From the IMG/VR virus record IMGVR_UViG_3300046703_000017, positions 1 through 31,539 of that record: a DNA stretch of 31,539 bases; one strand, 5' to 3'. The DNA is from a virus. The notes under the pieces were generated by a model. The model saw only the letters and a list, made by a program, of their open reading frames with translations, was not told the DNA's origin and did not search any database. The position numbers were made by a program, and so were the translations under genes. Shown in pieces: positions 8,831 to 27,701 of the stretch (its first letter is position 1; each line of letters opens with the position of its first letter).

Positions 8831-9283
8831 ATGGATATTAAAGATATTTATTACGTTGCTGGCATTCTTGAAGGAGAAGGATGCTTTAGTTATTACAATG
8901 CTCCTAGAATCTTTCTTAAGATGACAGATAGAGATGTGATTGAAAAAGTTAAATTTATTATGAATGTAAATGTTAGTATTGGTGAACAGAATAGAAATGG
9001 TTGGAAAACAGCTTGCGTTTTAGCAATTAATAGTCATCAAGCTATTGGATGGATGATGACTCTATATCCTTTAATGTCTGCTCGAAGAAAAGAGCAAATC
9101 AAGCAAGTACTCTCCACTTGGAGAAACTCAAAAGGCTACAACGGTTTTACCATAGCAACGGGTAAAGCCTTAATTCGAGCTATCGCAAGAAAACATGCTA
9201 TCCCACAGCATAAAGCCAAAAACTGGCTTAATAGTGGAAAATATGTCACAGATTCAGTTACGGGGCGAACTTACATCGGATAG
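8831..9283 (+). CDS. Free-standing LAGLIDADG homing endonuclease
   Basis: This 150-aa protein has a clear LAGLIDADG-type motif near its start (VAGILEGEGCF, residues 9-19). Glu16 is at the position of the metal-binding acidic residue, and a typical MTDRDVIEKVKFIM follows. With one motif it would act as a homodimer that cuts a long DNA site. The C-terminal part (about 105-150) has a helical ALIRAIARKH segment and may help DNA binding. The gene stands alone between scaffold and capsid genes, with a weak ribosome site, and is not inside an intron or intein that I can see; the scaffold and capsid frames are intact. Such free-standing endonucleases in phages usually cut genomes lacking the gene and spread by repair. 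Confidence 0.85.
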   Translation: MDIKDIYYVAGILEGEGCFSYYNAPRIFLKMTDRDVIEKVKFIMNVNVSIGEQNRNGWKTACVLAINSHQAIGWMMTLYPLMSARRKEQIKQVLSTWRNSKGYNGFTIATGKALIRAIARKHAIPQHKAKNWLNSGKYVTDSVTGRTYIG

Positions 9284-10912: not shown

Positions 10913-10918
10913 TAACGT

Positions 10919-10966
10919 GGATGGTCCTCTTACAATTTCGAGTTGGATTAGGACCATCCTTTCTTT
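10919..10966 (+). terminator. Rho-independent terminator-like hairpin after capsid/decoration genes
   Basis: GGATGGTCCT (10919-10928) and AGGACCATCC (10950-10959) form a perfect 10-bp stem with a 21-nt loop. A T-rich tract (tttcttt, 10960-10966) follows. It lies in the gap between the decoration gene and the glycosyltransferase. The loop is longer than in classic terminators, so it may act as a partial terminator that lowers expression of downstream genes relative to capsid genes. Confidence 0.6.
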
Positions 10967-10979
10967 AGGAAAACTCTCA

Positions 10980-11684
10980 ATGGACAAGAAAGTTTTAATC
11001 GGTTTATCAACCGGAGAACATATTAGGAAAGCTGAGTTTTTGCCATATTTTATGGCATTTGATAGACCAGCTAATAGCCTTGTTGTATCTGTTCATGGAC
11101 AATCTCCAGCTAAATCTAGAAATCTCATCGCAGAAGCTGCTATTGAGAATAACTGTACTCATGTTTTATTTTTAGATGATGATATGATTCTCCCTAAAGA
11201 TGTTCTTACTAGATTATTAGCTCATGATAAGGATGTTGTTACTGCTTTATATTTGTTAAGAACATTTCCTCATTATCCTGCAATGTTTGATAAGAAATAT
11301 GAAAATGGTAAATGTCGTTTCGCATTTTTAACTCCAGAGAAAAAAGGACTTATTCCAATAGTTAATGGAGGTCTTGGGTGTGTCTTAATATCAACCGAGG
11401 TCTTCCGAAGGTTGGAAAAGCCTTGGGTTCGGCTTGCTGAAATTGCTAAAGATGAATGGTGTGATGATATTGGATTTTTTAATCGCGTTAGTGAAGCAGG
11501 CTTTGAAATTTTCTGTGATTTAGATTGTCAAGTAGGACATATATTATCTGTGCATATGTGGCCTGAACAAACTGATAACGGTTGGATGACAAACTATAGA
11601 CATCTTACAGGTAATGTTCGTATTGCACAGAATATTCCTGGTGTTAAAGAAATAGCAGATGAAGAAAAATTACAATTAGTTTAA
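10980..11684 (+). CDS. GT-A fold glycosyltransferase
   Basis: The frame is open from a GTG at 10917, but that region is the terminator stem. The ATG at 10980, after AGGA, gives a sensible 234-aa protein starting MDKKVLIGLSTGEH. Hallmarks of a family 2-like GT-A enzyme are an SRNLIAEAAI segment (46-55), a DxD-type metal/nucleotide-sugar site FLDDDM (64-69), GLGCVLIS (131-138), an acidic DDIGFFNRV (162-170) for the catalytic-base region, and His187 in QVGHI as a possible metal ligand. Length is typical of short phage glycosyltransferases. Its place among capsid genes suggests it decorates virion proteins, DNA or host surface sugars. Donor and acceptor are unknown. Confidence 0.8.
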   Translation: MDKKVLIGLSTGEHIRKAEFLPYFMAFDRPANSLVVSVHGQSPAKSRNLIAEAAIENNCTHVLFLDDDMILPKDVLTRLLAHDKDVVTALYLLRTFPHYPAMFDKKYENGKCRFAFLTPEKKGLIPIVNGGLGCVLISTEVFRRLEKPWVRLAEIAKDEWCDDIGFFNRVSEAGFEIFCDLDCQVGHILSVHMWPEQTDNGWMTNYRHLTGNVRIAQNIPGVKEIADEEKLQLV

Positions 11685-15374: not shown

Positions 15375-16889
15375 ATGATCAGAAATCATCAGGGAATTGT
15401 TCTCGATAAGTTCAACGGTCTTTGGGACCGAGGAGATAAAGATACTACTCCGCGAGATCATTTCTCTGACTGTAATAATATAGACTATATAGCTCAATCA
15501 ACATTCCAGACTAGACGCGGAATAGCAATTAGCCAAGATGTTTTAGTTCCATTAACAAATATTCGTCGCATATATAACTATCCCACCCAGACTGCTAATA
15601 CATTAATAGTTCTCACATATGATTATGTTAGCGGATTTGGAAGCATACATCACATAGTTGATAAAAATACTGTTTACGGACCTTTATTGACTATCAAAGG
15701 AATGACAGATTTTGCATTTGTTCCATATGCCGGAAGAGCTTATATTTCACCCTTTAGTGATTATATTAATGGTGATTTAACTTTCCAGAAAGGTCTAGCT
15801 AATGAATTCTTATATGTATATGATGGTAAAGGCAATCCTGCTAGGGAAGCTGCAGGAAGTGGTCTTACTGGAGCAATGACAGTAGCTAACGGAGCTGCTG
15901 GACATACAGATCCCGGCCAACATATATTTGGTATTGTATCACAGACTGTATCTGGATACAATTCTCCTCCGACTATTTTAACAGCATTCATTACTGCTGC
16001 CGGAAATTCTGTTAGTTTTGGAACTATACCGACGAGTGGAGATCCTAATGTAGTTAAACGCTTACTTGTTTCTACAATAGTATTACCAACATATAATGGT
16101 AACTTAGATGGATATCAATTCTTTTTTGTCCCAAATGCAGTGATTAATGATAATACAACTACTGCGTTAAACAATATCTCATTCTATGATGCTGACTTAT
16201 TAGCAGACGCTTCTGGTTTGCTAAACAATTACACTTCAATCCCAGCCGGTGCCAGTCTTAGTTTATATCATAATAGATTGTGCTTAGCAGCAACGGCAAC
16301 AGACATTTCATTAATATTACTTTCACAGCCAGGCGAGCCTGAAGCTATTAATCAAATTAGTGGACTAATTGTCTTTCCTCTTGATGGTAATCCTATTACT
16401 AACGCCCAAGAAATGAGAGATGTCTTCTATGTATTCAAACGTGCTAAAACTATGGCATATGCTGATAATGGAGATGTTCCATCTTCATGGCCTATGATTC
16501 CTATTGATAATGCTTTGGGAACATCTGTACATGGAATTGCTACTGTTCTTGACTCTGGCTCATCCTCTGTTGATTTTCTTATCATTTGTACATATCAAGG
16601 AATAAGTCAATTTAATGGAAAATTTGTAACACCAGAGTTGAGCTGGAAGATTGAAAATCTTTGGAAATTATTAGATAGAAATGGATTTGGGAGTATTCAA
16701 ATCATAAATGCTCCAATTCAGAAGGAGCTCTATGCAGTTCTTCCAACTAGAACTATGTTAATGGGAAATTATTCTAATGGATTAGATTGGAAGAATATGA
16801 GATGGGCTCCCTGGTCATTTGCGACGGGCATAAATTCAGTTGCGATACATAATATTGATGAGATTATTTTAGGGGCGGATGTGTTGTAA
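15375..16889 (+). CDS. Tail hub/nozzle or DNA-stabilisation-type protein
   Basis: This 504-aa protein is almost entirely beta-structured and starts with a motif common in short-tailed phage tail-tube or packaged-DNA-stabilisation proteins: KFNGLWDRGDKDTTPRDHFSDCNN, with an RRGIAIS strand soon after. Repeated strand pairs through the protein (IRRIYNY, LIVLTYDY, LSLYHNRLCLA, KTMAYADNGD) suggest a beta-propeller or barrel stack. It starts 2 nt after the adaptor gene and its stop shares a base with the next start. It probably completes the short tail below the adaptor, by analogy with P22 gp10 or T7 gp12. The analogy is inferred from order and fold-like pattern. Confidence 0.6.
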   Translation: MIRNHQGIVLDKFNGLWDRGDKDTTPRDHFSDCNNIDYIAQSTFQTRRGIAISQDVLVPLTNIRRIYNYPTQTANTLIVLTYDYVSGFGSIHHIVDKNTVYGPLLTIKGMTDFAFVPYAGRAYISPFSDYINGDLTFQKGLANEFLYVYDGKGNPAREAAGSGLTGAMTVANGAAGHTDPGQHIFGIVSQTVSGYNSPPTILTAFITAAGNSVSFGTIPTSGDPNVVKRLLVSTIVLPTYNGNLDGYQFFFVPNAVINDNTTTALNNISFYDADLLADASGLLNNYTSIPAGASLSLYHNRLCLAATATDISLILLSQPGEPEAINQISGLIVFPLDGNPITNAQEMRDVFYVFKRAKTMAYADNGDVPSSWPMIPIDNALGTSVHGIATVLDSGSSSVDFLIICTYQGISQFNGKFVTPELSWKIENLWKLLDRNGFGSIQIINAPIQKELYAVLPTRTMLMGNYSNGLDWKNMRWAPWSFATGINSVAIHNIDEIILGADVL

Positions 16890-18391
16890 TGGCTGGAACT
16901 TTTAAAATACAGGGAGCGGGTTCTGTAACATCACAATATGGTACTAGAGCATGGTCTGGAGGATTAAGCGGTACCTGGTTATTATTCTCCGATGCTGACT
17001 TATTAACTGCTATTAATAGAGCTGACGCTGGAATTACAAATAGATATGTAGCTAATGGAGTATTATTAACTGGGGATCCCAGTGCTATAGGAATTGACTT
17101 AATCAGGTTTGGCTTTAACTCATCCGATAATATAATTTCATTAGATGGAAATTCTGCAGTCAGCCTTTTAAATTTACCATCAAATTTTATTATCACTAGT
17201 GCTACTCTTAAAGTAACAGGAGTTGGTATTCCTGGTGTGAGATCTCAATTATTTTTACAGTCAGATTCACTTACTGAACATGAAATTATACCATTTAATG
17301 CTGGACAAACCTATTCTTTTGCATATGATTTTACTATTCCCTCTAATCAACAAATATCTTCGCTTCTTAATCGTGGTTTTGGAATTCGGGTAATTTTTGC
17401 TATTGATAACTCAGTTTATGCGTTTTTTAACGCATATATTGAGGGAACTTATAAAATTGGAGCAACAGTAACTAGAGCATTCCCATCTTTCGGCGGAATC
17501 TTTGGAGGTTCCGGTAGATCAGCAGGAATTGAAGGTAAAGGATTCGTAGATGCTGGAACACTTACAGCAGTTTATTATGATGGTATTCCTGCTACTAATG
17601 TGTCTATTCTTAACGATACTCATATAGATTGTGATAATCCTCCTCATGCTGCTGGACCAGTTTATATCTCGATGTTATTTAATGGAACAGATCTCTATAC
17701 ATCAGCAACTCAGATATTCACATACGAACAATATTCATGGAATTTAGATAGCATATTAAATCCTTATCGAAGAGGAGATAAAGTTAGATTTTCTGGAACA
17801 CTATTAGATGGAGTTACACAGATACAACTTAGCTACGGTGATCCAACTCAAACTGTAGTTATATATGCAGGATCATATGATATTATAGTTCAGACACCAT
17901 ATAAGCTTTGGTTTTATATCCCTATTGACTTCATTCCTATTGACTTTATACCCACTAGTTTCATTCCGGTCATTCCTCCCACTAATTCTAATTATACTCC
18001 TCCTTCTGGTATAGTTCCAATAACAATTACACTTATTGGAACTCAATTCTCTGGCTCAGTAATAGCCGGAGTTATAAATGTTTTATTCGAGGACACTTCT
18101 GGGATATACACTCTAGTAAAGGGTCAAACTAACGATATATTGTACTCTAGAACTGGATATATTACGGATATAAAAATGTTGACTGTTCCTGATATATCTT
18201 ATCAAGAAAAAACATTTGAGGATGACTTCTTTAGTATGTTATTATATCCGCGTAAAATACTAGCACAGGATGATTCTGATGAAGATTACATGCTTGAGGA
18301 CTTCTCTATAACCTCAACTCTACGAGTAGTTGTTGTCACTCGTAGCGTGGAGATTCCTAGTCCTTTTGTTAGAACAGCATTTTTACCATGA
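16889..18391 (+). CDS. Tail protein with IPT/TIG-like domain
   Basis: The 500-aa protein has an N-terminal beta-rich region (1-200). An immunoglobulin-like IPT/TIG domain follows at about 204-279, recognisable from IEGKGF, VYYDGIPATNVSILND, a (C/N)-PP turn and a closing strand TQIFTYE. A short tandem repeat IPIDF/IPIDF/IPTSF is at 344-358. The C-terminal part is acidic and then beta-rich. IPT and other Ig-like domains in phage tails commonly bind host surface sugars or stiffen fibres. Start and stop are both coupled to the neighbours (TAATG and ATGA), which fits a tail complex made in one operon. It probably sits at the tail tip or side. Confidence 0.65.
   Translation: MAGTFKIQGAGSVTSQYGTRAWSGGLSGTWLLFSDADLLTAINRADAGITNRYVANGVLLTGDPSAIGIDLIRFGFNSSDNIISLDGNSAVSLLNLPSNFIITSATLKVTGVGIPGVRSQLFLQSDSLTEHEIIPFNAGQTYSFAYDFTIPSNQQISSLLNRGFGIRVIFAIDNSVYAFFNAYIEGTYKIGATVTRAFPSFGGIFGGSGRSAGIEGKGFVDAGTLTAVYYDGIPATNVSILNDTHIDCDNPPHAAGPVYISMLFNGTDLYTSATQIFTYEQYSWNLDSILNPYRRGDKVRFSGTLLDGVTQIQLSYGDPTQTVVIYAGSYDIIVQTPYKLWFYIPIDFIPIDFIPTSFIPVIPPTNSNYTPPSGIVPITITLIGTQFSGSVIAGVINVLFEDTSGIYTLVKGQTNDILYSRTGYITDIKMLTVPDISYQEKTFEDDFFSMLLYPRKILAQDDSDEDYMLEDFSITSTLRVVVVTRSVEIPSPFVRTAFLP
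17918..17977 (+). repeat. 15-bp tandem repeat coding IPxxF units
   Basis: Three 15-bp units (17918-17932, 17933-17947, 17948-17962) encode IPIDF, IPIDF and IPTSF, followed by a degenerate IPVIP. The first two units differ at only two bases. Their growth by slippage has probably produced the linker between the two halves of the IPT-domain protein. Confidence 0.7.
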
Positions 18392-19830
18392 GTTTTGATC
18401 CATCACGCCTATATACAGCATTACTAAATACAGGTCTGCAACAGAAAGATAATGCTCTATATCAAGTTATTCATGATTTAATTGGAACTGTTTCAGCTGT
18501 GAATAAACAGACTAATACAATTATTTCTGGTGGAGGATCTGTCGGTCCACAAGGATTACAAGGATTACATGTTATTGGCCCTCCTGGATTAGATGGGGAG
18601 AATGGTGAAGATAGTTTACTAAATCTCAATCCCTCTATCAATAATCTTATCTCTTCCTTTACGCAAGGCTCTGTTATCTTCGCTGGTCCGAGTGGGTTTT
18701 TGGCACAAGATAATGCAAATCTTTTTTGGGATAATACTAATAAGAGATTAGGAATTAAAACAACTACCCCAGCTACAGAACTCCAAGTTATAGGAGGAGC
18801 AGCAATCGGTGGTGATTGGTACAATAATGTTGTCCTCTCTGTTGGATTAAATGGTAATACTCTTTCACAGACACATCAGGTTGGTGTATATTCCGCTCTA
18901 CATGCCAATAGTTTCGCAGATGGTGCAGGCAGCTTTAATGGAGGATTTGAAACAGCTATTGGCACACAGGCAGGAGCGTTCACAATAGAGAAAGTAGCCA
19001 ATTTTGCTATCGGTTCAATCGGTAAAGGTGCTGGATCTACTATAACTAGAACGTGGGGATTGTCAACGCATGATGAAACAGCCGGCACTTATAATGCTAC
19101 TATTGCTATTTTTGATGCAGTATTTGTTGATGATTATTTTATCTATTATACTGGGACTCGCAAGTCGGTTCTAGCTGGCGGAGATTTGATTGCACCAATC
19201 GAAATATACCGTAGCAGTGCTAGCTCATATATACGATTTTCAGGCGGTAGTGTAAGTCAGGGCGGTAATTTCCTCTTATTCGGTGAAAGCCATGCGACAT
19301 TAGCAAATACAGCACAATTCAATGCCTCTGGGGGTTTATTCATAACTGCTCCGACTAAAGTTACTGGTACGTTAGTAACTACTGGCTATGTTGGTATTGG
19401 GACACTAGTACCATTTGCCAAATTAACTGTTGGAGTGGGTACTGCTTCTGATTATGGTGTGAATCAGCTAGACTTGGCCGTAAAATTGTCTTCCCCAGTG
19501 GGCGTTATATTTGAAGCAGCTGGAGACGATAGCGGGTTAATTATCAAGGATGCAGCGGGTGTATTTAATATTTCAACGACTTATGGATCTACTGGTAGTT
19601 ATAGAAAAATTCAAATCACTCCTGGCAACAATGCAGTAATAGTATTACAAGCAACAGGTACTGGTAATGTTGGAATTAGAGTAACTGTTCCTACCGCTAT
19701 TTTACATATAGCAGCAGGAACAGCAACAGCCTCAACAGCACCCTTTAAGTTAACTAGCGGTGTTAATCTTACAACTCCAGAATCCGGCGTGATCGAATAT
19801 AATGGTACAGACTTTTTCCTCACACCATAA
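18388..19830 (+). CDS. Collagen-like tail fibre protein
   Basis: This 480-aa protein begins with a helical region (RLYTALLNTGLQQKDNALY). A Gly-X-Y collagen-like segment lies at residues 53-75 (GPQGLQGL, then GPPGLDGENGED), with one interruption. Then come several copies of a fibre repeat: NLFWDNTNKRLGIKTTTPATELQV at 111-134, with weaker versions near GYVGIGTLVPFAKLTV and GNVGIRVTVPTAILHI. Such repeats form trimeric beta stalks in phage fibres. No intramolecular chaperone (Ser-Lys protease) end is visible; the protein simply ends DFFLTP. The next gene starts at the stop codon and may supply the fibre tip. Likely a trimeric adsorption fibre. Confidence 0.8.
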   Translation: MSFDPSRLYTALLNTGLQQKDNALYQVIHDLIGTVSAVNKQTNTIISGGGSVGPQGLQGLHVIGPPGLDGENGEDSLLNLNPSINNLISSFTQGSVIFAGPSGFLAQDNANLFWDNTNKRLGIKTTTPATELQVIGGAAIGGDWYNNVVLSVGLNGNTLSQTHQVGVYSALHANSFADGAGSFNGGFETAIGTQAGAFTIEKVANFAIGSIGKGAGSTITRTWGLSTHDETAGTYNATIAIFDAVFVDDYFIYYTGTRKSVLAGGDLIAPIEIYRSSASSYIRFSGGSVSQGGNFLLFGESHATLANTAQFNASGGLFITAPTKVTGTLVTTGYVGIGTLVPFAKLTVGVGTASDYGVNQLDLAVKLSSPVGVIFEAAGDDSGLIIKDAAGVFNISTTYGSTGSYRKIQITPGNNAVIVLQATGTGNVGIRVTVPTAILHIAAGTATASTAPFKLTSGVNLTTPESGVIEYNGTDFFLTP

Positions 19831-21818: not shown

Positions 21819-22820
21819 ATGGCAAGCGGTTTACAAATTGGCAGCCCAATAGGTCCTAGTAAACCATTTACATCATTTGGTGATCCATCTACTTTTACAT
21901 CTGCTGCTACTACACAGGCTAGTGATTATGATAAAATTATGCAGCAATATGCTGATTTGGCTAAAAGCTATTCCACTAGTCCAATAACTGCTGGCACTGT
22001 ATCTCCTTCTTCTGTATCAACTCCAGGAGGTGTATCTCCTAGTTCTGTAAGTTATAGTTCAGTTGCTCCACAAACAGCAAAATATGAACAATCTGGCGAT
22101 GTAACTAGTTCGTTAGGTAAATTATCAGATTTAGCTACTACAGGTGGATATTCTGAAGCTGATAAATCAGATATCAGAGCTAGAGATATTTCCCCTATCC
22201 GTTCTATTTATGCTAATGCTCAACAGAATGCTGAGCGATCAAAAGCATTAGGTGGTGGATATAGTCCTAATTTTGGTGCCGTAACGGCTCAAATGTCTCG
22301 TGATGAAGCTAATAAAATAGGTGATGTAACAACCTCTGCTAATGCTGGTATTGCTCAGAATGTAGCTAGTAATAGAATAGCAGCCGCTGCCCCATATGCT
22401 TCCGCTTCAGCTAGTGCGAATGCTGCAAAAACAGCTTCAGATCAACACAATGCTGATATTATTAATCAGATTAATGAGATGAATTCACAAGGTGCTCTAT
22501 CAGCTAGCTCTACTAACGCATCTAATTCATTAAATGCCGGTGAATTTAATACATCTACAGAAGCCGCAATCGCTGAAGCTAATGCTAATAGAGCAACTAC
22601 AACTGGTGAATTTAATGTACAAGCTGCATTAGATGCTGCTAAAACTAATCGCTCTGGAGCTTTAGGTGCTATAGAAGGTCAGAGAAGTCTATATGGAACT
22701 ACTCCGGCATTGACAAATACATTTGGTAATCAAGTGATGCAGGCAGGTCAATTAGGTCAAGGTCAACAGAATATTAATCTAAATAAACAGAGAAGCATAT
22801 TCGGAATGGCTGGAGGATAA
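21819..22820 (+). CDS. Low-complexity internal virion/ejection protein candidate
   Basis: This 333-aa protein is rich in Ala, Ser, Asn, Gln and Gly. The N-terminal third is disordered, with SPSSVS repeats (TVSPSSVSTPGGVSPSSVS). Most of the rest is a long Ala-rich helical region (ANAGIAQNVASNRIAAAAP, AASASANAAKTASDQHNADI), ending in a Gln-rich segment. Short-tailed phages carry internal proteins of this kind, which are ejected before the DNA to form a channel in the host envelope, and these genes lie just after the tail and lysis genes, as here. No specific family is recognised, so the call is inferred from composition and order. Confidence 0.5.
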   Translation: MASGLQIGSPIGPSKPFTSFGDPSTFTSAATTQASDYDKIMQQYADLAKSYSTSPITAGTVSPSSVSTPGGVSPSSVSYSSVAPQTAKYEQSGDVTSSLGKLSDLATTGGYSEADKSDIRARDISPIRSIYANAQQNAERSKALGGGYSPNFGAVTAQMSRDEANKIGDVTTSANAGIAQNVASNRIAAAAPYASASASANAAKTASDQHNADIINQINEMNSQGALSASSTNASNSLNAGEFNTSTEAAIAEANANRATTTGEFNVQAALDAAKTNRSGALGAIEGQRSLYGTTPALTNTFGNQVMQAGQLGQGQQNINLNKQRSIFGMAGG

Positions 22821-22822
22821 TA

Positions 22823-23683
22823 ATGACTTTCATGAGTTCTCTAGCCGCAAACCCTGGTGGTTCTGGTGTTTATGGACAACCAGGACAACAGGATGATACA
22901 CTTGGAATTGTTAATCAATTAAAAGATAGAGAGCTAAGAGATTTTAAAGATAAATCTAATTTTATGTCAGATTTATCATTTAGACAAGAAGCTAGAATGA
23001 GAGCCTTATTTGATCCTTCTGGGCATCAAGGAGTTCCACAAGGAGATCAACAAGGTCAATCAGGACAGCCGATGAATACGGTAATGGCTAAAGATCCTAA
23101 TGCTATGACTGGATATGAAAAAGGTGAATTAGGGATAAGACAGCAAGGATTAGGTTTAGAGCAGCAAAAAACGGCTCAGACAGGAAAGATGGGAGAAGAA
23201 AAGTTAGGAATACAATCTGCTCAAGAGAAGTTAAATCAACAGAAGAGTGACCAAGCTAATGCTGCTAAACAAGCTGATTTACAACGCAAAGTTGATGAGT
23301 CCAGTCAAAAATTCGCAGCAATACAAGCTGAATTAGAACGTAAAACTAAAGCTGGTGAAGATACGTTACAAGCTCATAAAGATTTAGCTGCTATTGTTGA
23401 GGAGAGACATGCAGCAGAAAGAGCTATGACGCAACATAAAATGGATACTCAAGATGAACAATTCAAGAAGTTAAGAACTGAACATGATGCATTATTAAAA
23501 CAGAGTCAGAATACTAAACAGGTAAAGAAAGATGCACAGGGAAATGTAATAACTACAGAGACTACTAAGGGTTCAGCGGCTGAGACTGTTGATGTAGTTG
23601 GTAAAGACGGTAAGAAATACACAATTCCAGCAGATAAAGTAGATGATTGGAATAAGAATCATCAACCTGAAGGAGAACAATAA
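22823..23683 (+). CDS. Coiled-coil, Gln-rich virion/ejection protein candidate
   Basis: This 286-aa protein has a Gly/Gln-rich N-terminus, then long charged helices (about residues 100-235, for example KLNQQKSDQANAAKQADLQ and KMDTQDEQFKKLRTEHDAL). A small C-terminal domain with YTIPADKVDDWNKNHQ follows. The arrangement suits an elongated coiled coil. A GGAGG site lies upstream, and its TAA shares a base with the ATG of the deoxyhypusine-synthase-like gene. With the genes on both sides it forms a set of three likely internal virion proteins, interrupted by that enzyme. Confidence 0.5.
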   Translation: MTFMSSLAANPGGSGVYGQPGQQDDTLGIVNQLKDRELRDFKDKSNFMSDLSFRQEARMRALFDPSGHQGVPQGDQQGQSGQPMNTVMAKDPNAMTGYEKGELGIRQQGLGLEQQKTAQTGKMGEEKLGIQSAQEKLNQQKSDQANAAKQADLQRKVDESSQKFAAIQAELERKTKAGEDTLQAHKDLAAIVEERHAAERAMTQHKMDTQDEQFKKLRTEHDALLKQSQNTKQVKKDAQGNVITTETTKGSAAETVDVVGKDGKKYTIPADKVDDWNKNHQPEGEQ

Positions 23684-24687
23684 TGTTACCACGCGAAATG
23701 AAGGTCCCAATAGAAGTTAAATTATCTGGCCCAACTGCTAAGTTTGTTAGGGAGAATTATCATCATTATAGTTCACAGAGTTTAAAGAATGCAACTTATG
23801 GATATAAACATTTATTAGATAATGGTGGTAAAATGTTCGTGTCTATGGCTGGTGCTATGTCAACAGGAAGATTAGGAATCTCTCTAGCTAAAATGATACG
23901 AAAAGGATTTGTTTCTGGTCTTAGCGTTACCGGAGCTAATTTAGAGGAGGATGTGTTTAACCTAGTTGCGCATGATACATATCTCCAAATCCCTGATTAT
24001 AAAGATTTAACTCCAGAAGATGATGCAAAATTAGCTGCAAAAAAGCTAAATAGAGTCACCGATGCCGCTATCCCGGCGACCGCGATGAAAGAAGTAGAAG
24101 ATCTTATTATTGAAAAGTGGAAGAATGCAGTCCTGGGATCGGAAAGGAAATTTCCCCACGAGTTTCTAACTGAATTATTACTAGATGGAAAACTTGAAAA
24201 ACACTATCAAATTGATTCTGCTGAAAGTTGGTTGTTAGCAGCTGCTGAGATGAATATTCCTATTGTTACTCCTGGATGGGAAGATTCTACATTAGGTAAT
24301 GTCTTTGCATCATTAGTAAGAGAGATGGAAGTAGAGTCTTCTGTAGTTAAGATGGGTATTGAAGCTATGAATTATCTCGCTGATTGGTATCTAAAGACTA
24401 AGGAGAAGAAGGGATTCTTCCAAATTGGCGGCGGTATAGCAGGTGATTTTGCTATCTGCGTAGTTCCCTTTCTCCGACAAGATTGTAAGATGGGTGATAA
24501 AGTTAAACATTGGGATTATTTCTGTCAGTGTACTAATGCTATTGTTGAAGAAGGTGGATATAGTGGTGCCGAACCTAATGAGAAGATCACTTGGGATAAA
24601 ATCTCAAAGAAGACTCCCACATTTGTTGTGAAGGGTGATGCTTCTATAAGCGTCCCCTTAATTTTCAACCAAATTTTAGGCGAATAA
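23683..24687 (+). CDS. Deoxyhypusine synthase-family enzyme
   Basis: The 334-aa protein aligns by eye along most of its length with deoxyhypusine synthases, NAD-dependent enzymes that transfer the aminobutyl group of spermidine to a lysine. Matching blocks are an NAD-site-like SVTGANLEEDVFNLVA (81-96), NIPIVTPGWEDSTLG (191-205), FFQIGGGIAGDF (245-256), YSGAEPNEKITWDK (293-306) and DASISVPLIFNQIL (319-332). Lys306 lines up with the active-site lysine of the human enzyme (Lys329), Glu300 with Glu323, Trp304 with Trp327 and Asp201 with Asp243. The human Lys287-His288 and Asp316 positions read Gly-Asp and Tyr293 here, so the substrate may differ. Family length is about 330-370. A GGAG site precedes it, and it overlaps both neighbouring virion-type genes by one base. 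eIF5A is absent from bacteria, so the acceptor is unknown (free diamine, host or phage protein). Confidence 0.85.
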   Translation: MLPREMKVPIEVKLSGPTAKFVRENYHHYSSQSLKNATYGYKHLLDNGGKMFVSMAGAMSTGRLGISLAKMIRKGFVSGLSVTGANLEEDVFNLVAHDTYLQIPDYKDLTPEDDAKLAAKKLNRVTDAAIPATAMKEVEDLIIEKWKNAVLGSERKFPHEFLTELLLDGKLEKHYQIDSAESWLLAAAEMNIPIVTPGWEDSTLGNVFASLVREMEVESSVVKMGIEAMNYLADWYLKTKEKKGFFQIGGGIAGDFAICVVPFLRQDCKMGDKVKHWDYFCQCTNAIVEEGGYSGAEPNEKITWDKISKKTPTFVVKGDASISVPLIFNQILGE

Positions 24688-27600
24688 TGCCTCTTCCATT
24701 TAGACAACAAAATACTGAAGATTCTCCAGAAGAAGAATGGACTCCTCCTAGCTATGCTAAACCTGTAGAGGAATCTTCTAGCGAAGAATGGAAACCTCCA
24801 TCTTATGCTAAAGCTATTGAAGAAGTAGCTAAGAAGCCTAGCGTATTTAGTAAGATTAAAGAGGCTATTGTTCATCCAAAGTCTTTTAATCCTTCTGGTA
24901 TTAAGATTCCAGAAAAAGAAGCTTTACCAAATCCATCTTCAGAAGAACGTATTAGAGCTGCTAATGAGTTAAAAGATCCGGGACAAGGTTCTTATTTTAA
25001 AGAACATCCGAGTGGGAAAGTCGAAGAGCCTAGTCTAAAACAGAAAGCTGATAAATTCTTGGGGGAAGTATTATCAACAGATAAACATCCTTATCTTAAA
25101 CGAATTTTAACTAGTAATAATCCTGGAGAAGAATCTGCATTACCAACTACTCAAGAGGTGGGAATAAAGCAACCAACTACATTTGCTGGTGGATTAGCTA
25201 AGGGAGTATATGATGAGTTTGCTAGACCTTTATCATCTGCTGCCGGTGTCGCTGGTACTATAGCATTTGGTAATGAATCTCCAGATTTAAATGAGCCAAC
25301 AATAGCTAGAGAGCTTCCTATTGGACAAGCTGATAGAAGAACTAATCCTCTTAGAGATACAACTCCTCAGCAAGATGCTGTAGCTATTGCTCAGACTCGT
25401 GAAGGAATTCCTCGTACTGCTAAGAATATTTCTACTGAAACAGGAATACCTCAGCCTTCAGTGAGACGAACGATTAGTGAGTTAAAAAAGAAAGCTGAAG
25501 CTCCTAAAGTTGAGACTCCTGTTGCTGAAGAAGCTCCTAAGCCTATTATCCCTGATAGACTTCCTCCTGTTGATGCATCAGATTCTGATATGCAGAAATT
25601 TGCGGATAGTATAAAAGCTTCTCAGACTGAGATTCCTCCTGCAACAGCAGATGAAAGACCTCTTCCAATAAGAAGACCTGATGAACCAATTAATAGAGCT
25701 GACGTTCCTAGAGAATATGCTCTTCCTGATGATGCTGCAGTTAATGCTCAAGAACCTCCTATAGTTCAGAGAGGAATTACAAATGATCGATTATATAATC
25801 TAGCGCGTGAAAGACAGAATATGGGAGCTGACATTCCTGAACCTACTCAGAAGGCTAATTTTAATCCATTTGAGAAACCTAAAGTCGAAATGCCTAAACT
25901 TGAGTGGAAACCTCCTAGTTATGCTAAGGCTGTTGAAGAGACTCAACCTACGGCTGAAGAAATTAAAACTCCTGAAACCTCTCCTGATGGTATAACAGAG
26001 ATGAGCGGAGGTATTGGAGGAATTAAACCTCCTAAAAAAGTTTATCCACCAAGTCAAGGTCCAGCAGGACCTGCAGTAGATAAGCTATTTAATGCAATGG
26101 GTGGAACTCTAGAAAAGAGAACTCAACAGGATGTAATTAATAAAGTTGAGAGAGCTAAGAGATTTGCCGCCTTTGCGGGAGTTAAAGAAGAAGGAGTTTC
26201 TGGAGCCGCTAAGAGCTTAGGAAAGCTAAGGGGAGAGTTTGAGAAGGTTAATCCAGGTGAAGGTTTAGATTTAAATGATAGAGAAGCTGATAGCCTATTT
26301 ACAGCCGTTAAAAGAGCTAAAATCTCTGAGGGTGAAAAGGCTCGTGGTTATACAGCTCTATTCACGATTCTAAATGGAGATAGACTGCCACAAAGAAATG
26401 AGCTTAGAATCTTAGATGATGTGTTTGGTAATAGTTTTGCTGATAGAATTACACAGATGCATGGAGGAATTGGAGCTGTTGGTCTGAAGCTATCTAAAGT
26501 AGCTAATACTATGAAATCTATGCAGAATGCTTTATCATTAGCGGCGCCATTAAGACACGGTGCCGGATTGATATATAAGAAAGAATTCTATCCAGCATTT
26601 GTTGATATGTTTAAGTTTTTTGGTAATAAGGAGTATTTTGATTCATCTATGCAGGCAATGCAAGAACATCCTAATTATCCTAAATTTAAAGAGGCTGGTG
26701 GGTTCTTTGCTAAGTCAGGAAGTTTGTTAAATTCAGAAGAAGAGTTTTTGAATAGTTATGTCGGTGATCTTCCTAGAGCTACTGGGATTCCTCAAGCAGT
26801 AGGAGCATCACAAAGAGGTTATGTTGGATTTCTTAATAAATTAAGATTTGATGTATTTAATAGCATGACTAAAAAGGCAGAAGGTTTAGGGACTAAACTA
26901 TTTACAGAAGTTGGAGATCAAGTTGTAGCGAGTAAAGAAGCTAAAGCCATAACTAATTTTATTAATAATGCTACCGGCAGAGGAGATTTAGGTTCTCTGA
27001 ATAAGGTAACTAATGAATTGAATTTACTTCTCTGGTCTCCAAGAATGATTGCTTCACGTGTTCAGATGTTTGCTAACCCTAAAATTTACATGGATTTACC
27101 TAAAGGAATGAGACTCGAAGGAATGAAGAGTCTCTTAGGTATTGCTTCTATGGGATTAATGGTTAATGGACTTGCATCTTTAGGCGGAGCTAAAGTAGGA
27201 ACTAATATCTTATCAACAGACTTTATGAAGTCTCGATTTGGTAATAAAGTAATAGATCCTAATGCTGGATTACAACAGTATGTAGTTGCCGCTGCTAGAT
27301 TTTTAAAAGGCAAGACAGATAGCTCTCAACCTACTAGTAGAATGGAAATAGCTGGTAGATTCTTAGCAAATAAAGAGTCCCCGGCAGCTAGTTTAGCACA
27401 TACTATGTTAACAGCTAAATTCACTGGTAAGAGCGATGACCCAGCAACGGCTGGAAATCTTACTACTGAATATGGAGAAAAAACAAATATCCAATCTCAA
27501 ATAGGAAAACAGTATATTCCTATATTCCTACAAGACTTAGCTGATTTAGCTCAGTCAGAACCAGATTGGTCTAAAGATATCGGTCTAGATGTAGCAATGG

Positions 27601-27701
27601 GAGCCGCTAGCCTAGCTGGAATGGCACAAGATTATCCAGAGAAGAAACATGGTCTTTCTTTAGGAAAGATGAGAGGACTTAAACTTAATAAACTTCAATA
27701 A
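24687..27701 (+). CDS. Large internal virion (ejection) protein candidate
   Basis: This 1004-aa protein is the last gene of the late block. The N-terminal half is disordered and Pro/Glu/Lys-rich, with three copies of W(K/T)PPSYAK (residues 18-25, 35-42 and 407-414). Between them is a helix-turn-helix-like stretch (about 228-270) centred on RTAKNISTETGIPQPSVRR and a following basic helix. From about 600 to the end it is helical and resembles the C-terminal regions of large phage polyvalent/internal proteins, including ALSLAAPLRHGAGLIY, NLLLWSPRMIASRVQMF, a hydrophobic stretch at about 813-838 and VIDPNAGLQQYVVAAARF. Size and position match the largest ejected protein of short-tailed phages. 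No lytic transglycosylase or polymerase motif was seen. Its end overlaps the convergent gene by 7 bp. Confidence 0.6.
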   Translation: MPLPFRQQNTEDSPEEEWTPPSYAKPVEESSSEEWKPPSYAKAIEEVAKKPSVFSKIKEAIVHPKSFNPSGIKIPEKEALPNPSSEERIRAANELKDPGQGSYFKEHPSGKVEEPSLKQKADKFLGEVLSTDKHPYLKRILTSNNPGEESALPTTQEVGIKQPTTFAGGLAKGVYDEFARPLSSAAGVAGTIAFGNESPDLNEPTIARELPIGQADRRTNPLRDTTPQQDAVAIAQTREGIPRTAKNISTETGIPQPSVRRTISELKKKAEAPKVETPVAEEAPKPIIPDRLPPVDASDSDMQKFADSIKASQTEIPPATADERPLPIRRPDEPINRADVPREYALPDDAAVNAQEPPIVQRGITNDRLYNLARERQNMGADIPEPTQKANFNPFEKPKVEMPKLEWKPPSYAKAVEETQPTAEEIKTPETSPDGITEMSGGIGGIKPPKKVYPPSQGPAGPAVDKLFNAMGGTLEKRTQQDVINKVERAKRFAAFAGVKEEGVSGAAKSLGKLRGEFEKVNPGEGLDLNDREADSLFTAVKRAKISEGEKARGYTALFTILNGDRLPQRNELRILDDVFGNSFADRITQMHGGIGAVGLKLSKVANTMKSMQNALSLAAPLRHGAGLIYKKEFYPAFVDMFKFFGNKEYFDSSMQAMQEHPNYPKFKEAGGFFAKSGSLLNSEEEFLNSYVGDLPRATGIPQAVGASQRGYVGFLNKLRFDVFNSMTKKAEGLGTKLFTEVGDQVVASKEAKAITNFINNATGRGDLGSLNKVTNELNLLLWSPRMIASRVQMFANPKIYMDLPKGMRLEGMKSLLGIASMGLMVNGLASLGGAKVGTNILSTDFMKSRFGNKVIDPNAGLQQYVVAAARFLKGKTDSSQPTSRMEIAGRFLANKESPAASLAHTMLTAKFTGKSDDPATAGNLTTEYGEKTNIQSQIGKQYIPIFLQDLADLAQSEPDWSKDIGLDVAMGAASLAGMAQDYPEKKHGLSLGKMRGLKLNKLQ

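Follow-up and report, generated by a model that had tools for sequence, protein, structure and literature searches.

The enzyme gene within a phage late operon

The window, that is, the whole stretch of DNA that was analysed, is an IMG/VR record of 31,539 bases; judged from gene content, the surroundings of the gene discussed here are those of a phage, since the window also encodes a terminase large subunit, a major head protein and an endolysin, with a primase/helicase and a DNA polymerase on the opposite strand. The gene itself is an uninterrupted reading frame of 334 codons (23683-24687, + strand) and encodes a predicted SpeY-like enzyme of 334 aa with the deoxyhypusine synthase (DHS) fold, an assignment based on its match to the Pfam family PF01916, an AlphaFold model, Foldseek searches and a tree of the clade. 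Read from the sequence, a ribosome-binding-like AAGGAG lies at 23670-23675 (+), with the ATG 7 bases on. Sites of this kind accompany 15 of the 29 window genes, which is above chance (shuffled mean, 5.6) and suggests a host that relies on Shine-Dalgarno sites. A Bacteroidota-looking signal peptide had raised the possibility of a host from that phylum, which was rejected, as the Shine-Dalgarno-like sites of the window speak against it.

Regarding its neighbours, the enzyme gene overlaps each of them by one base, in both cases within TAATG, exactly as the sequence-only reading had described. The upstream late gene (22823-23683, +; 286 aa) encodes a putative ejection or internal virion protein, and it precedes the enzyme gene in all ten related contigs (L002-L011); the downstream one (24687-27701, +; 1004 aa) encodes a putative ejection or polyvalent virion protein and is kept in nine of the ten, the remaining contig (L008) ending within the enzyme gene. 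Another late gene of the same block (21819-22820, +; 333 aa) is kept in L002-L003 and L005-L011, with weak conservation in a 48-kb relative (G013). It should be noted that the name of ejection genes, given earlier to the two flanking genes, is plausible, but no family match backs it; the upstream neighbour matched no family in Pfam or PHROGs.

Across the ten related contigs, the identity of the enzyme is 62-85% and that of the upstream neighbour 38-50%. The more distant relative G013, the record behind contig L027, has 48,010 bases and looks complete because its ends overlap by 127 bases; its terminase and portal proteins are 38% and 47% identical to those of the window, and the same enzyme is found in its late region. 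As for selection, the dN/dS of the enzyme between the window and its relatives is about 0.07 (0.05-0.10) and that of the upstream neighbour is 0.47 (one comparison), both being rough values with dS near saturation. The fixed place across a divergent family, together with the low dN/dS, indicates a long-term resident under purifying selection, so that the earlier description of a resident late gene stands: by sequence comparison, the enzyme gene has a fixed place in the late operon across a podovirus family.

Family, fold and active site

PF01916 (deoxyhypusine synthase) is the sole Pfam match of the enzyme above cut-off, with 144 bits against a cut-off of 27 (E = 7.8e-42, residues 29-330); no family of PHROGs matches it, and its NCBIfam matches are exclusively to DHS-type models. 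The best of these is NF001980 (homospermidine biosynthesis) with 112.6 bits, a score below the cut-off of 450, and the bacterial relatives of the enzyme reach 94-120 bits with the same model; TIGR00321 (eIF5A-type DHS) gives 88.9 bits against a cut-off of 304, and NF002699 (the agmatine enzyme, CdmS) 75 bits against 500. The AlphaFold model is confident (pLDDT 89.7, pTM 0.90), and its best 50 Foldseek matches are all DHS (E 1.5e-15 to 1e-12), with TM values to the archaeal and eukaryotic enzymes of about 0.7-0.76 (human about 0.75, Pyrococcus 0.7) and an identity in the structural alignments of about 16-22%; a Foldseek search of BFVD, a viral structure library, returned no viral protein with the DHS fold at E <= 0.001. 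The profile search and the structure prediction proposed in the sequence-only reading therefore both uphold its family assignment, and, on score, predicted fold and catalytic residues together, the enzyme is a member of the DHS superfamily.

In the alignment with human DHS, the residues assigned earlier from the sequence find their counterparts: the catalytic Lys306 (codon 24598-24600) corresponds to human Lys329, Trp304 (24592-24594) to Trp327, Glu300 (24580-24582) to Glu323, and Asp201 (24283-24285) to the polyamine-binding Asp243, all four codons being on the + strand. None of these residues varies among 21 phage and 74 bacterial relatives, nor among the 35 phage sequences of an enlarged set.

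Two other positions differ from the human enzyme. The first is that of human His288, described as proton acceptor/donor of the DHS reaction (PMC7226451), which is Asp255 (codon 24445-24447, +) in the window enzyme and Asp in every phage and bacterial clade member checked; compared with a handful of outgroup sequences, this position has His in human and haloarchaeal DHS and Asn in the NF001980 and NF002699 homologues, so that the histidine of the eIF5A-type enzymes is, by alignment, replaced throughout the clade sequences checked. The second is that of human Asp316, occupied by Tyr293 throughout the clade, except for two phages with Phe. Both changes had been read as a hint of a different substrate; both are real, but only that at His288 is informative, whereas that at Asp316 is not diagnostic because the haloarchaeal DHS compared have Leu there. 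Since the two changes are common to 74 of the 74 bacterial relatives checked, they were inherited and not evolved by the phage. Together with Trp199 and Trp277, Asp255 and Tyr293 make up the residues of the pocket region that are typical of the clade.

Relatives in bacteria and in other viruses

The phylogeny suggested on first reading groups the enzyme with a bacterial subfamily, far from haloarchaeal DHS and from the NF001980 and NF002699 types, which are all distant in the tree. The nearest bacterial sequences are 50-59% identical and come from Verrucomicrobiota, Acidobacteriota, Bdellovibrionota, Bacteroidota, Planctomycetota and others, and the window group forms with G013 and contig L175 an 11-phage clade (support 100/99). 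In the best tree the phages are not one clade (6 changes), and a single phage clade occurs in 0 of 200 bootstrap trees; the AU test does not reject such a clade (p 0.14), for which reason several independent acquisitions by phages, as drawn in the best tree, were dropped as a claim. Four sequences labelled bacterial that fall amid the phages (L059, L064, L088 and L102) may be viral contigs in MAGs.

Regarding other viral carriers, an alignment search found the enzyme gene in about 54 further IMG/VR contigs, the longest having 464 kb and others 206, 178 and 162 kb; for these the viral label of IMG/VR was accepted, and viral genes were checked in part. In L014 and L026 the gene is followed at a short distance by a major capsid gene of the SU10 type, in L016 it lies amid genes matching virion structural families, and in L194 it overlaps the gene of a 2011-aa protein with an Eco57I-type methylase domain, which takes the place of the downstream neighbour and resembles, in its sequence, a polyvalent ejected protein. 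Judged from gene content, the placement with virion genes recurs in phages without similar neighbours, although not in all. The survey of phage genomes advised earlier for this arrangement was thus rewarded in part: the gene stands beside virion-type genes in the relatives and in several other phages, but tblastn found no relative in 50,697 GenBank phage records, so that all the evidence comes from metagenomic contigs. Plasmids gave only haloarchaeal DHS with 22-24% identity, and haloarchaeal DHS used as query gave nothing in the viral contigs.

As for polyamine genes, SpeA (arginine decarboxylase), AguA (agmatine deiminase) or AguB (N-carbamoylputrescine amidase), with families confirmed by NCBIfam, adjoin the enzyme in 10 of the 80 bacterial loci, arrangements that would lead from arginine to putrescine and on to the enzyme; within the stretch fetched, the other 70 loci have no match to the three. 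An arginase/agmatinase-family gene is present at the enzyme gene in four viral contigs of three types (L013, with a one-base overlap; L202; and the near-identical L212 and L213), and a SpeD-like gene occurs in three enzyme-bearing viral contigs (G174, G175 and G180); homologues of SpeD in phages can have arginine or ornithine decarboxylase activity (PMC9992855, PMC10407285). SpeY, a homospermidine-producing homologue of DHS, clusters with speB and with speD-derived arginine decarboxylases (PMC9992855, PMC10407285); clustering of this type, with putrescine-making genes, is found in the ten bacterial loci and in the four viral contigs. In the window's own phage family no other polyamine gene was found, the eIF5A domain (PF01287) is absent from all 21 phage records searched, and no member of the subfamily with a measured activity was found.

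G180, the record of L202 with 79,958 bases, has the SpeD-like, the arginase/agmatinase-family and the enzyme genes in one viral contig, and it possibly encodes, on the evidence of these gene families, the whole route from arginine to homospermidine. A different gene adjoins the enzyme in marine contigs: that of a 198-aa protein with IDID and NFDHHHDVYYPGW motifs (1289-1882 in L017, and others), which overlaps the enzyme gene by one base, and all nine viral contigs where the scan found this protein also carry the enzyme gene. It was suspected to be an agmatinase analogue; the protein of the L017 group has no match in Pfam or the PDB, and its model has a pLDDT of 47.

Shared leader peptides were also observed next to the enzyme gene. 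In L017 (2835-4579; record G010), and similarly in L025, the four consecutive small genes directly after it share the leader MKLLLENWR in proteins that are otherwise different, which may be a common peptide for targeting to the capsid or for processing. In a large phage of an unrelated kind (L181, L185, L188 and L190), two consecutive genes just downstream share a leader of the MKHLKSIDEFKxVNEQLF type, which suggests a common targeting peptide adjoining the enzyme gene.

Proposed reaction, role and alternatives

It is known that phages need polyamines and that virions contain them. The gene neighbours in bacteria and phages, the lack of eIF5A in the phage records and the SpeY-like clusters indicate that the enzyme most likely uses NAD to build homospermidine from two aminobutyl units. 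The product of the window gene is thus probably a SpeY-like NAD-dependent homospermidine synthase of a bacterial subfamily, expressed with the late genes, and its likely purpose is DNA packaging; from genes and their context we infer which substrate is used, what is made and when, and how the phage gains by it. In the reaction, NAD would oxidise one putrescine, whose aminobutyl group would be held as an imine on Lys306 and then be passed to a second putrescine and reduced, yielding homospermidine. The phage would have gained the gene from a bacterium long ago, and translational coupling as a late gene would have the triamine made during virion assembly; the triamine would most likely serve as counter-ion to the DNA when the genome is condensed and packaged. 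A role in packaging is proposed because of the late position of the gene and of the long-known packing of polyamines by phages (PMC7226272).

Among the alternatives, a polyamine enzyme with another product, obtained by agmatine coupling as in caldomycin synthase, by spermidine-plus-putrescine exchange or from some other amine, is fairly unlikely. It is made possible by the scores, which are far under every curated equivalog cut-off, and it agrees with the pocket-region residues that the clade has of its own and with the existence of DHS homologues with different amine substrates (PMC10981699). However, the score with NF002699 is low, the AguA, AguB and agmatinase-family neighbours convert agmatine into putrescine and so point to putrescine as the substrate, and Asp201 is kept, whereas caldomycin synthase has Phe204 at this place (PMC10981699).

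The enzyme, with its gene placed between those of two ejection-type proteins, might also be itself a component of the virion, packed and injected with the DNA, making homospermidine or altering an injected protein in the new cell. We regard this as unlikely; if true, it would mean a virion-borne polyamine synthase and a convergence of unrelated phage types on placement in the head/ejection block.

As regards protein modification, some protein of the virion or the host, or one that binds DNA, would receive an aminobutyl group on a lysine in a deoxyhypusine-like manner, and the fold and catalytic lysine, as in DHS, and the tight coupling with virion genes would suit such an activity. It is nevertheless decidedly improbable: PF01287 is missing from the 21 phage records, the TIGR00321 score is far below its cut-off, the His288 of the protein-modifying enzymes is replaced, the bacterial kin sit in putrescine operons, and the flanking genes vary among phage types, so that no common acceptor gene is seen. 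The low scores with DHS models, the missing histidine and the absence of eIF5A from the phage records indicate, at the level of sequence, that the protein is not an eIF5A-modifying enzyme. The sequence-only reading had left polyamine synthesis and protein modification side by side; gene context in bacteria and phages, loss of His288 and absence of eIF5A clearly favour the former and disfavour the latter.

A role in counter-defence, in which the enzyme lowers free putrescine, is highly improbable. Uptake and accumulation of putrescine after the lysis of neighbours are reported to protect Pseudomonas against phages (PMC11898732, citing earlier work), and the enzyme is expected to consume putrescine; but a gene with this role would be expected early and not in the virion block, and the agmatinase-family neighbours in other phages would raise putrescine. 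DNA hypermodification of the putrescinyl-thymine type was discarded, as neither the window family nor G013 has a thymidylate-synthase-family gene. Finally, it is barely credible that the gene was acquired in passing or is inactive and serves the phage in no way: phages do pick up host genes, but nothing specific favours this here, and purifying selection, the fixed location across a divergent phage family and the invariant active site all oppose it.

The homospermidine synthase proposed here can be compared with four known systems. It shares with SpeY of cyanobacteria and Pelagibacter (NF001980-type) the PF01916 fold, the catalytic lysine and, in its bacterial relatives and some phages, the neighbourhood of putrescine genes; unlike SpeY, it is phage-carried and coupled to virion genes, it has Asp and not the Asn of the NF001980-type homologue compared at the position of human His288, Trp199, Trp277 and Tyr293 are typical of its clade, and its 112.6 bits against 450 place it outside the characterised SpeY group. 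With eukaryotic and archaeal DHS it shares the fold and the equivalents of Lys329, Trp327, Glu323 and Asp243, but it lacks His288, has only about 16-22% identity and a score far under the curated cut-off, and occurs in phages without eIF5A. CdmS of Thermus, the synthase of caldomycin (1,9-bis(guanidino)-5-aza-nonane), is likewise a DHS homologue with the conserved lysine that couples two amines; it differs by the reported loss of the Asp243 equivalent (PMC10981699), retained as Asp201 in the phage enzyme, which scores 75 bits against 500. Homospermidine synthesis by viruses is itself established for the HSS of chlorovirus PBCV-1, Ralstonia phage RSL1 and giant viruses (PMC9992855), but this HSS belongs to an unrelated family, related to carboxyspermidine dehydrogenase, to which the window enzyme has no match, its matches being only PF01916 and DHS-type NCBIfam models.

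A survey of viruses in 2023 sought both SpeY and DHS and found neither in any virus (PMC9992855), in agreement with the earlier remark that such a phage gene had no described function; no later report was found in the literature searched, bioRxiv and most subscription papers being outside its scope. In view of that survey, the enzyme appears to be a new type of viral polyamine enzyme, that is, by its sequence, a new viral form of a known kind of enzyme and not new chemistry as far as can be told. It places a DHS-fold polyamine enzyme in a podovirus late operon as well as in the further viral contigs, and among virion genes instead of early metabolic ones, which offers a direct way into the question of whether phages produce a DNA-packaging counter-ion of their own.

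Some other features of the window deserve mention. A homing-endonuclease-like gene (8831-9283; phrog_5046, HNH endonuclease) lies amid the head genes and is absent from that place in the relative G001, and a glycosyltransferase-like gene (10917-11684; matches to phrog_1574 and phrog_34859) is found within the head block. Surface proteins of the virion are probably encoded at 16889-18391 and 18388-19830; one has an IPT/TIG domain over the Pfam cut-off, and one a short collagen-like stretch.
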